From: Massilia soli
GTDB taxonomy: Bacteria; Pseudomonadota; Gammaproteobacteria; Burkholderiales; Burkholderiaceae_D
Direction of reading: 5' to 3'
Length of the DNA: 64,000 nucleotides
Assembly (NCBI RefSeq): GCF_016809835.1
Contig: NZ_JAFBIL020000004.1
Coordinates: 124,001 to 188,000, forward strand
Below, in pieces: positions 14,485-16,913 of the stretch; position 1 is the stretch's first letter, and each line of letters starts with the position of its first letter. The notes below the pieces were generated by a model that worked only from the letters and a program-made list of their open reading frames with translations, was not told where the DNA came from and did no database searches. The translations under genes were made by a program, and so were the position numbers.

Positions 14485-15291
14485 ATGTCCGTCAAGTCAA
14501 GGAATAACGTCCAATGCTCCGGCAGCGGCCCGATGACGATGCTGTTTGCGCACGGTTTTGGCTGCGACCAGAGCATGTGGCGCCTGGTCGCCCCGGAATT
14601 TGCCGAGCGTTTCAAGGTGGTTACCTTCGACCTGGTGGGTAGCGGCGCATCCGACCGCGGCGCCTACGACCGCAAAAAATACAGTTCGCTGCAAGGCTAT
14701 GCCGACGACATCCTCGAGATCGTCGACGAATTCGCGCAAGGCCCGGTCATCCTGGTCGGCCATTCGGTCAGCGCGACGATCGGCATCCTGGCCACGGCGG
14801 CCGCGCCGCAGCGCTTCGCCGCGCAGATCATGGTCGGGCCATCGCCGTGCTACATCAATGACGGCGACTACATCGGCGGCTTCAGCCGCGAAGACATCGA
14901 CGAACTGCTCGAGACCATGGACGCGAACTACCTGGGCTGGTCCAGCAACATCGCGCCGGCCATCATGGGTGTGCCCGACCGCCCCGAACTGGGCACTGAG
15001 CTCACCACCACCTTCTGCCGCAACGACCCGGAGATCGCCAAGCATTTCGCGCGCGCGACCTTCCTGTCCGACCATCGCGACGACCTGGCGCGCTCGCCGA
15101 CGCCGGCGCTGATCCTGCAGTGCAGCGACGACATGATCGCCCCGCGCGCGGTCGGCGACTACATGCACGCGCGCCTCCCGAACAGCAAGCTGGAAATCAT
15201 CGACAACGTCGGCCACTGCCCGCACCTGAGCGCGCCGGACGCCAGCAACCGCGCGATCAACGCCTTCCTCGCGCAGGTTGTGGAGCACTAA
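14485..15291 (+). CDS. RsbQ-like alpha/beta hydrolase
   Basis: 268 aa with AAGGAAG before the ATG. It matches the RsbQ/KAI2-D14 branch of alpha/beta hydrolases: FAHGFGCDQSMW oxyanion region, nucleophile Ser94 in VGHSVSA, acid Asp216 in LQCSDDMIAP and base His244 in GHCPHLSAP. The spacing from acid to base is identical to that in Bacillus subtilis RsbQ. In Bacillus, RsbQ is needed for the PAS-domain phosphatase RsbP to respond to energy stress, probably by supplying a small hydrophobic ligand. Here the stop codon overlaps the start of a PAS histidine kinase (TAATG), so the hydrolase probably serves that kinase. The substrate cannot be read from the sequence. Confidence 0.88.
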   Translation: MSVKSRNNVQCSGSGPMTMLFAHGFGCDQSMWRLVAPEFAERFKVVTFDLVGSGASDRGAYDRKKYSSLQGYADDILEIVDEFAQGPVILVGHSVSATIGILATAAAPQRFAAQIMVGPSPCYINDGDYIGGFSREDIDELLETMDANYLGWSSNIAPAIMGVPDRPELGTELTTTFCRNDPEIAKHFARATFLSDHRDDLARSPTPALILQCSDDMIAPRAVGDYMHARLPNSKLEIIDNVGHCPHLSAPDASNRAINAFLAQVVEH

Positions 15292-16913
15292 TGGCCGATG
15301 CGTGTCCGCCCGATGACGCGTTCTACGAGCACGCCGCGTGCGGGCTGCTGGTAGCGGAGACCGATGGACTGATCCGGCGCGCGAACGCCACCATCTGCCG
15401 CTGGCTCGGCTACGAGGCCGACGAGCTGATTGGAAAGGTCCGGGTACAGGACCTGCTGACCGTGGGCGGGCGCCTGTTCCACCAGACCCACATCAACCCG
15501 ATCCTGCAGCTGCAGGGTTCTGTGGCCGAAGTCCAGGTCGAAATGCGCCACCGCGACCAGACCCGGATATCGCTGCTGATCAACATCGTGCGGCGCCGCC
15601 ACGGCGATTCGCACCTCGACGAACTGGCGCTGCTGGTGGGCGAAGACCGGCGCGCCTACGAGCGCGAACTGCTCAAGGCGCGCCAGACGGCGGAAGCGGC
15701 ACTGGAAGCGCGCCACGGCGCCGAGGCCAAGCTGCACGAAATGAACGAGCAGTTGTCGCTGGCCGATCGCCGCAAGGACGAATTCATCGCCACCCTATCG
15801 CACGAGCTGCGCAATCCGCTGGCGCCGATGCACAGCGCGCTCGAAGTGATGAAGCTGCGCTCAAGCGGGAATGCCGCGCTGGAGCCGGTGCTGCCGGTAT
15901 TCGAACGCCAGCTCAAGCACATCACCCACCTGGTCGACGACCTGATGGAGATCTCGCGCATCACTGAAGGGCGCATGGCGCTGCGCTGCGCGCCGCTCGA
16001 CCTGGGCACGGTGGTACGCGCGGCCGCCGCCGATGTCGCGGCGCTGATCGACGCCTCGGGCCACACGCTCAGCATCTCGCTCCCGCCGCAGGCGCTGGTC
16101 GTCGACGGCGACGCCACCCGGCTCACGCAGGTGGTCGTCAACCTGCTGACCAACGCCGCCAAGTACACCCCGCGCGCAGGCCGCATCTGGCTCGAAGCGG
16201 CGCGCCACGAAGGCCAGGCGCAGATCACGGTGCGCGACGACGGCATCGGCATTCCGCAGCAATCGCTGGCATCGATCTTCGACATGTTCTCGCAGCTCGA
16301 ACCCGCGCTCGACCGCTCGCAAGGCGGGCTGGGGATCGGGCTGGCGCTGGTCAAGGGCATCGTCATGCTGCACGGCGGCGACATCTGCGCCGTCAGCGAG
16401 GGAGTCGGACGCGGATCGGAATTCCGGCTGCGCCTGCCCCTCAGCGCTGCCGGCATCGGCGCCGACGCCAGCGCCAGCGCGCCGGTCAGCGTCGAGGCGC
16501 TGCGCGTGCTGGTCGTGGACGACAATGCCGACGCGGCCGACACGCTGGTGATGGCGCTCGAGCTGCTCGGCTGCGAAGCGAAAGCGGTGTACAACGCGCT
16601 CGATGGACTGGCGCAACTGGCCGAATTCAGACCGCAGGCAGCGCTGCTCGACATCGGCCTGCCGGACATGAATGGCTACGAGATGGCGCGCCGGGTCCGC
16701 GCTGCCGACAGCGGCGCCGCAATCACGCTGATCGCCGCCACTGGCTGGGGCCAGTCCAGCGACAAAGAGCGCGCGCGCGAAGCCGGCTTCGACCACCACC
16801 TGACCAAGCCGATCGACTTCGACCAGCTCCAAACGATCTTAACGCTTGTCAAGCAGTTCCAAAGTCCGGTAGTTCCAAAATCGGGGACAGACCACCATTT
16901 TAGAATCTTCTAA
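15291..16913 (+). CDS. PAS-domain hybrid histidine kinase with C-terminal receiver, partner of the RsbQ-like hydrolase
   Basis: 540 aa, with no membrane segment seen. A PAS domain covers residues 8-105 ([38 protein letters not shown]). A coiled coil (about 120-160) leads to HisKA with His171 in [15 protein letters not shown]. The HATPase has [26 protein letters not shown] and [13 protein letters not shown] receiver from about 404 carries Asp454 in [15 protein letters not shown] and Lys506 in HHLTKPI. The PAS resembles that found with RsbQ-type hydrolases, but the output here is a phosphorelay instead of a PP2C phosphatase. There is no DNA-binding or Hpt domain, so a separate target is needed. 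From residue 528 on, the codons come from a palindromic repeat, so the last 13 residues are not native to the family. Confidence 0.9.

Follow-up and report, generated by a model that had tools for sequence, protein, structure and literature searches.

RsbQ paired with a PAS hybrid histidine kinase in Massilia soli: a published sensor module and relatives in which the partners stand apart

In Massilia soli, the gene of an alpha/beta hydrolase runs directly into that of a PAS histidine kinase, which raises the question of how the hydrolase informs the kinase, by making a small ligand for the PAS domain or by touching the PAS domain itself. We examined the pair within a window of 64,000 nt (NZ_JAFBIL020000004.1, positions 124,001-188,000 of the forward strand), and all coordinates given here are positions within this window. 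The rsbQ-like hydrolase gene (14485..15291, plus strand, 268 aa) starts at ATG 14485, from where its homologues align, and not at the upstream GTG at 14452. Its stop (TAA, 15289-15291) overlaps the kinase start by 1 nt in the sequence TAATG (15289..15293, plus strand), through which the two genes would be translationally coupled. The kinase gene (15291..16913, plus strand, 540 aa) opens with the ATG at 15291 and stops at 16911-16913. It encodes, all on the plus strand, an RsbP-type PAS domain (residues 1-116, 15291..15638; delimited by class residues, profile search and AlphaFold2), a long signalling helix that may form a coiled coil (residues 117-160, 15639..15770; AlphaFold2), HisKA (162-227) and HATPase_c (273-385) domains (15774..16445; Pfam), and a C-terminal receiver (406-517, 16506..16841; Pfam Response_reg). 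The overlap with its shared base at 15291, and the order PAS-HisKA-HATPase-receiver without an output domain, are as the initial annotation had described them: HisKA, HATPase_c and Response_reg all score well above the Pfam cut-offs, and Pfam finds no output domain C-terminal of the receiver in the 540-aa protein. Pfam matches to the PAS domain are weak (PF00989, 22.7 bits with a cut-off of 22.6; PF13426, 24.2 bits with a cut-off of 27). Promoter and terminator scans of 14300-17000 found nothing.

Among solved structures, the hydrolase is most similar to Bacillus subtilis RsbQ (1wom_A, E 6.7e-88, 297.7 bits), followed by 3qvm (E 1.1e-74), another hydrolase, and KAI2/D14-type proteins with scores of about 200 bits or less. 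The catalytic triad S94/D216/H244 is invariant in all 106 aligned homologues (96 paired with a kinase and 10 stand-alone). The triad of B. subtilis RsbQ is S96/D219/H247 (PMC3183031), and the Asp-His spacing is thus 28 in both proteins. The initial identification of an RsbQ-type hydrolase with this triad and the B. subtilis acid-base spacing therefore stands, as does the placement of KAI2/D14 in the same hydrolase branch (E about 1e-58 to 1e-46). The topology of KAI2 is described as essentially that of RsbQ (PMC3548789, in the part of the text available). The AlphaFold2 model of the window RsbQ has a pLDDT of 93.2, and its cap helix (residues 135-161) holds G151, which corresponds to G154 of B. 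subtilis RsbQ in the alignment to the solved chain.

Such pairs are already in print. In PMC3183031, Nadezhdin, Brody and Price (2011) describe 45 pairs of RsbQ and an RsbP-type PAS domain, whose outputs are PPM, histidine kinase or GGDEF; a C-terminal receiver is present in three of the kinases. In 36 of the 45, a coiled coil 21 residues long or longer separates the PAS domain from the output. The same text names nine class-typical PAS residues and shows, for B. subtilis RsbQ/RsbP, direct contact of RsbQ with the F-alpha face of the PAS domain; F55A in the PAS domain breaks RsbQ binding, and two-hybrid and pull-down data are given. Position 59 is the other published contact residue, and the 2011 model places position 56 on the side of the pocket. 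Substitutions in the triad of B. subtilis RsbQ are null (PMC3183031). Two models were offered there: in Model 1, RsbQ produces a ligand and brings it to the PAS domain; in Model 2, RsbQ is itself the sensor and signals by contact. The kinase-coupled module is also cited in the available part of PMC12143880, which reports an AlphaFold2 complex of RsbP and RsbQ. A ligand-delivery system had been put forward as a possibility for the window pair; since the module and both models, with hybrid-kinase outputs included, are already contained in PMC3183031, the proposal is in essence Model 1 and is not new. The window pair almost certainly belongs to this RsbQ-PAS module and, because the pairing has been in print since 2011, is an ordinary case of it. 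Its interest could lie in the natural experiment that surrounds it, as loci in which rsbQ is deleted, duplicated or elsewhere while the kinase is kept are tests of the 2011 question of ligand versus contact. A literature search that reached few subscription journals found no paper that reports the loss of RsbQ or groups of RsbQs standing alone.

We assessed the PAS domain with a profile of 15 partner PAS domains from actinobacterial records, 14 with a PPM output and one (L127) with a kinase. This profile ranks the window PAS first in its own genome (E 1.2e-37, next place 1.0e-5), so that the domain is of RsbP type, as had been supposed, and is not nearer to the PAS domains of unrelated sensor kinases. 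The RsbP position numbers used below (48-86) were carried over to the window and its relatives by motif spacing and not by direct alignment to RsbP. The window PAS has the class residues C17, L20, L56, R61, F63, H64, H67, P70 and E80, and fits eight of the nine class positions named in PMC3183031 (C17, L20, L56, R61, F63, H64, H67 and E80), where class residues are a 75% consensus from which single departures occur. The departure here is at the P86 position, which is S94 in the window and P in 87 of 96 partner PAS domains. The DIT motif at the PAS end is absent from the window sequence, and a profile search for a solved RsbP PAS structure gave one weak PAS match that is not RsbP. Among the 96 RsbQ partners (95 distinct PAS sequences, as L078 and the G016 locus are identical), position 55 is F/Y in 95, position 59 is H in 89, position 62 is P in 94, and position 53 is R/K in 93, while the pocket-side position 56 takes eight kinds of residue (H/Y/F/W/Q/L/M/N). 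H64 of the window lies at the position that matches C56 of RsbP, and His is found there in 43 of the 96 class members. A heme ligand at position 56 was considered and is not favoured, as the residue is not conserved and has no tie to output type. The AlphaFold2 model of the PAS part (pLDDT 93.5) matches PAS domains among solved structures and continues after the PAS domain as one helix (117-159). Heme PAS domains (FG214, FixL, Dos) and flavin PAS domains are near the top of the fold matches, which are generic for PAS and extend to domains without a named ligand.

The pairing itself is well conserved. In a scan of named genomes, an RsbP-type PAS gene lies directly downstream on the same strand in 79 of the 80 best RsbQ loci, these being the best 80 of at least 587 confirmed RsbQ relatives; the exception is L094. 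According to their record titles, the named loci come from Pseudomonadota, Bacteroidota, Actinomycetota, Acidobacteriota, Myxococcota, Chloroflexota, Planctomycetota and Verrucomicrobiota, with several metagenome bins. In an initial set of 26 RsbQ loci from the window and its own relatives, 17 are paired, the window's among them. We then have a family survey of 392 genomes, with RsbQ at E<=1e-50 in 152 genomes and the PAS profile at E<=1e-20 in 162. A full-length rsbQ adjoins 118 of its 126 strong PAS loci (E<1e-30), 104 with a listed RsbQ directly upstream and 14 shown to be paired by locus inspection, and is absent at the other 8. The adjacency of hydrolase and PAS kinase in other genomes, on which the initial annotation had made its reading depend, is thus borne out. 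The module is also patchy, since a class-level sample holds RsbQ in just 4 of 370 genomes, the window's own among them.

The outputs of the 96 partners comprise 46 kinases with a receiver, 28 kinases without one, 15 PPM and four GGDEF/EAL proteins, and three with none found or truncated (L115, L144 and L148, of which L144 runs off its contig); these calls come from home-made profiles, with Pfam run on ten examples and one more. The gap between rsbQ and the PAS gene ranges from -17 to +22 nt, with 41 overlaps, in the 94 of 96 partners with an assignable start (L121 and L139 were left out of these counts). No RsbQ-PAS fusion was seen in six-frame segments (at least 60 residues) of the 106 loci examined, and no relatives were found in the viral contigs scanned. 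In two loci (L042 and L043), the receiver of the RsbQ-PAS kinase is followed by an Hpt-like stretch, a provisional name given that L043 itself supplied the seed of the Hpt profile. At L246 (G736 C2 6046740), the paired PAS gene has an open frame of only 171 aa, and its kinase part seems cut short.

RsbQ also occurs without a kinase. The 150 RsbQ matches listed, down to near E 1e-99, comprise 104 beside a strong PAS locus, two far copies of tandem loci, and 44 that stand alone. No PAS was found within about 1.8 kb of 35 of these 44 or in larger stretches around the other nine, and L094 brings the stand-alone set to 45. In a quick tree with many weak forks, the stand-alone RsbQs form several groups interspersed with paired members of the same family. 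The strongest contrasts between the two sets are at residues 22 and 151. Residue 151 is G/A in 103 of the 104 paired RsbQs (one has T), which were drawn widely and not from one family (103 distinct sequences, with L078 and the G016 locus again the same), versus 13 of the 45 stand-alone RsbQs, the others having D, K, S, E or N. Within the family, G/A is found in 32 of 33 paired and 12 of 44 stand-alone RsbQs. The contrast weakened in the bigger sample (9 of 10 stand-alone RsbQs differed at first and 32 of 45 later) and is a lead but no proof, because the stand-alone sequences fall into a handful of groups. At two tandem rsbQ-rsbQ-kinase loci, L206 (G717) and L214 (G764), the copy near the kinase has G/A at 151 and the far copy has E.

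The far copy at L206 and L214 clusters with a stand-alone RsbQ. In the window's genus, bluB (5,6-dimethylbenzimidazole synthase) is the neighbour of seven stand-alone RsbQs (L037 and L046-L051). A general link of stand-alone RsbQs to BluB was rejected, as bluB is near 7 of the 45 and these form one clade.

The converse case is provided by the eight family loci that lack an adjacent full rsbQ. Apparent remnants of rsbQ were seen at seven of them, and the kinase frames persist (503-787 aa at the eight loci). In G001, an internal deletion that keeps the frame has reduced rsbQ to 115 aa. G002 and G007 retain about the first 43 RsbQ residues in frames of 54 and 48 aa, respectively, and probably share one rsbQ loss. 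Judged by eye, G687 has a 27-aa frame, G686 has a short frame with an RsbQ-like start, and G502 has an RsbQ-like start that continues into the kinase without a change of frame. Only a C-terminal piece of rsbQ was seen in G507 (tblastn, E 8e-7), and none was recognised beside the kinase of G430. The stop of the remnant overlaps the kinase start in G001, G007, G507 and G686 and lies within about 10 nt of it in G002 and G687. Comparisons involving five of the eight kinases (G001, G002, G007, G502 and G687) gave dN/dS values of 0.14-0.37, and three pairs with an intact rsbQ gave 0.19-0.26. For the PAS part, the ratio is highest in G002/G007 (0.48, versus 0.26 for the rest of the kinase) and is 0.18 in G502/G687. 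The strict H-box pattern was not found in the kinases of G507 and G686; together with the PAS ratio of G002/G007, this suggests that some of the kinases without rsbQ may be decaying. Another RsbQ is encoded elsewhere in five of the eight genomes; the one in G502 has G151. No RsbQ match was found anywhere in G001, G507 and G686, with six candidates scored per genome, and since their kinases persist, RsbQ is not strictly required for the kinase to be kept.

The PAS domains of these eight kinases depart from the paired ones at particular positions. Position 55, 62 or 72 deviates in five of the eight versus 7 of the 96 paired partners (Fisher p 4e-4, for positions picked post hoc and with kinship uncorrected). 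Taken singly, the departures are 3 of 8 versus 5 of 96 at position 72, 1 of 8 versus 1 of 96 at position 55, and 1 of 8 versus 2 of 96 at position 62. Position 48 departs in five of the eight versus 3 of the 96, a change that in G002 and G007 is common to paired orthologues. None of the eight departs at positions 53, 59 or 86, or from the usual kinds at position 56.

On this evidence, we think it fairly probable that RsbQ and the PAS kinase form a bipartite cytoplasmic sensor that signals by direct docking, with a hybrid histidine kinase as its output. RsbQ and the kinase would be made together through their overlapping translation. RsbQ would then bind the PAS domains of the kinase dimer at the F-alpha face, as in B. 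subtilis RsbQ/RsbP (PMC3183031). This contact may be altered by a small molecule that RsbQ binds or cleaves in its pocket, and the change would travel down the long helix to HisKA. As the domain order suggests, phosphate would pass from the His to the kinase's own receiver, on to a separate Hpt protein and finally to a response regulator. Docking fits the retention of PAS positions 55 and 62 and the variability of position 56, the drift at positions 48, 55, 62 and 72 where rsbQ is missing, and the change at RsbQ 151 where the kinase is missing. Some observations call for caution: 13 of the 45 stand-alone RsbQs keep G/A, contact residue 59 is unchanged in all eight kinases without rsbQ, and the sequences are related. 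Judged from sequence comparisons, the evidence leans towards docking as the likelier of the two published models and is no proof of it.

In the rival Model 1, the PAS pocket is the actual sensor, and RsbQ supplies it with the hydrolysis product of a small molecule. We consider this possible but on balance unlikely. The triad does not vary among the 106 RsbQs, so that catalysis may matter, and triad substitutions are null in B. subtilis (PMC3183031). The basic residue at the pocket-side PAS position 53 (93 of 96) would suit a ligand, and heme and flavin PAS domains are among the top solved folds of the PAS model, so that ligand making stays alive. The eight kinds of residue at the pocket-side position 56 argue against it, as do the kinases that persist in three genomes without an RsbQ match and the generic nature of the fold matches, which include PAS domains without a named ligand. 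A rather improbable alternative gives the kinase its own input independent of RsbQ, which would be a mere modulator or inhibitor whose loss frees the kinase. It would account for the 8 of 126 strong PAS loci that lack a full rsbQ in cis and still have kinase frames of 503-787 aa, for the dN/dS of five of these kinases (0.14-0.37, versus 0.19-0.26 in intact pairs), and for the three of eight genomes without an RsbQ match. However, rsbQ is kept at 118 of 126 loci, an RsbQ from elsewhere in the genome could serve the kinase in trans in five of the eight cases, and some of the kinases may be decaying (the H-box missed in G507 and G686, the PAS ratio of 0.48 in G002/G007). That the two genes are chance neighbours or merely co-expressed, without joint function, is scarcely credible: RsbQ can indeed stand alone (44 among the 150 matches listed), but the pairing is found at 79 of the 80 best loci and 118 of the 126 strong PAS loci, and the module is common to several phyla with exchanged outputs.

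Beyond the docking sensor in the window, a more speculative idea, which we hold as tentative and rather doubtful, is that the family module is dissolving in both directions. RsbQ would have left the kinase several times to become a stand-alone hydrolase, losing the Gly/Ala docking switch at residue 151, and kinases would have lost all of RsbQ except a short coupling leader and would keep working in its absence, with drift at the PAS contact residues. If this were true, RsbQ would be a detachable receptor like plant KAI2/D14, and RsbQ residue 151 together with PAS positions 55, 62 and 72 would constitute a docking code.

Candidates for the next step of the phosphorelay are present in the genome. 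Among its 14 Hpt profile matches, two come from small stand-alone proteins, C33 (119 aa) and C11 (214 aa), whose contigs are not that of the rsbQ-kinase locus; a search for such a lone Hpt protein, which the initial annotation had proposed, has therefore yielded two. Four Hpt matches, at 4610-8041 of the window, lie in one 1819-aa minus-strand open frame. Chemotaxis-like open frames, judged by eye, are found beside it at 8138-11920, as in a twitching-type chemosensory cluster. A heme link through the neighbouring hemL was rejected. In the flanks of 108 loci (E 1e-40), hemL, thiD and corA were found only at the G003 and G001 loci, and an inherited position is thus the simpler reading of the hemL neighbourhood.

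The 3' end of the kinase gene carries a palindrome (16871..16942, no strand), one copy of a repeat family. Its two arms, each of 35 nt, match perfectly and are separated by 2 nt, and the final codons of the kinase and its stop at 16911-16913 lie within it. The kinase of the closest relative is without this tail and has 523 aa versus 540 aa in the window, and the palindrome was probably inserted at the kinase 3' end, supplying a C-terminal tail and stop. The genome contains 75 copies of the half-site of this palindrome, 71 of them exact, and 0 of the reversed pattern, and another copy of the repeat is at 45912-45971 of the window. Copies of the repeat also flank a gene on contig C37 of the same genome (28100-29115, L156), which matches REP-associated tyrosine transposase with 55.8 bits (below the cut-off of 80) and Pfam Y1_Tnp with 42 bits (above the cut-off of 23). 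Palindromic repeats of this kind are moved by enzymes of the REP-associated tyrosine transposase type.

The window pair resembles the hybrid-kinase branch of the 2011 module in having rsbQ directly upstream, an N-terminal RsbP-type PAS domain, a long helix, and a kinase with a C-terminal receiver. It departs from that module in the Ser at the P86 position and in the kinase C-terminus rewritten by the repeat, neither of which is a difference of kind. As in B. subtilis RsbQ/RsbP, RsbQ is upstream of an RsbP-type PAS protein, whereas the output is a hybrid histidine kinase instead of the PPM phosphatase of RsbP. The hydrolase shares its alpha/beta hydrolase branch and Ser-Asp-His triad with plant KAI2/D14, although it is nearer to RsbQ (297.7 bits) than to the best KAI2-type chain (5z7w, presumably a KAI2 protein; 199.5 bits). 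In plants, the partners of KAI2/D14 are MAX2/SMXL, which are absent from the window pair, where RsbQ adjoins a PAS kinase.
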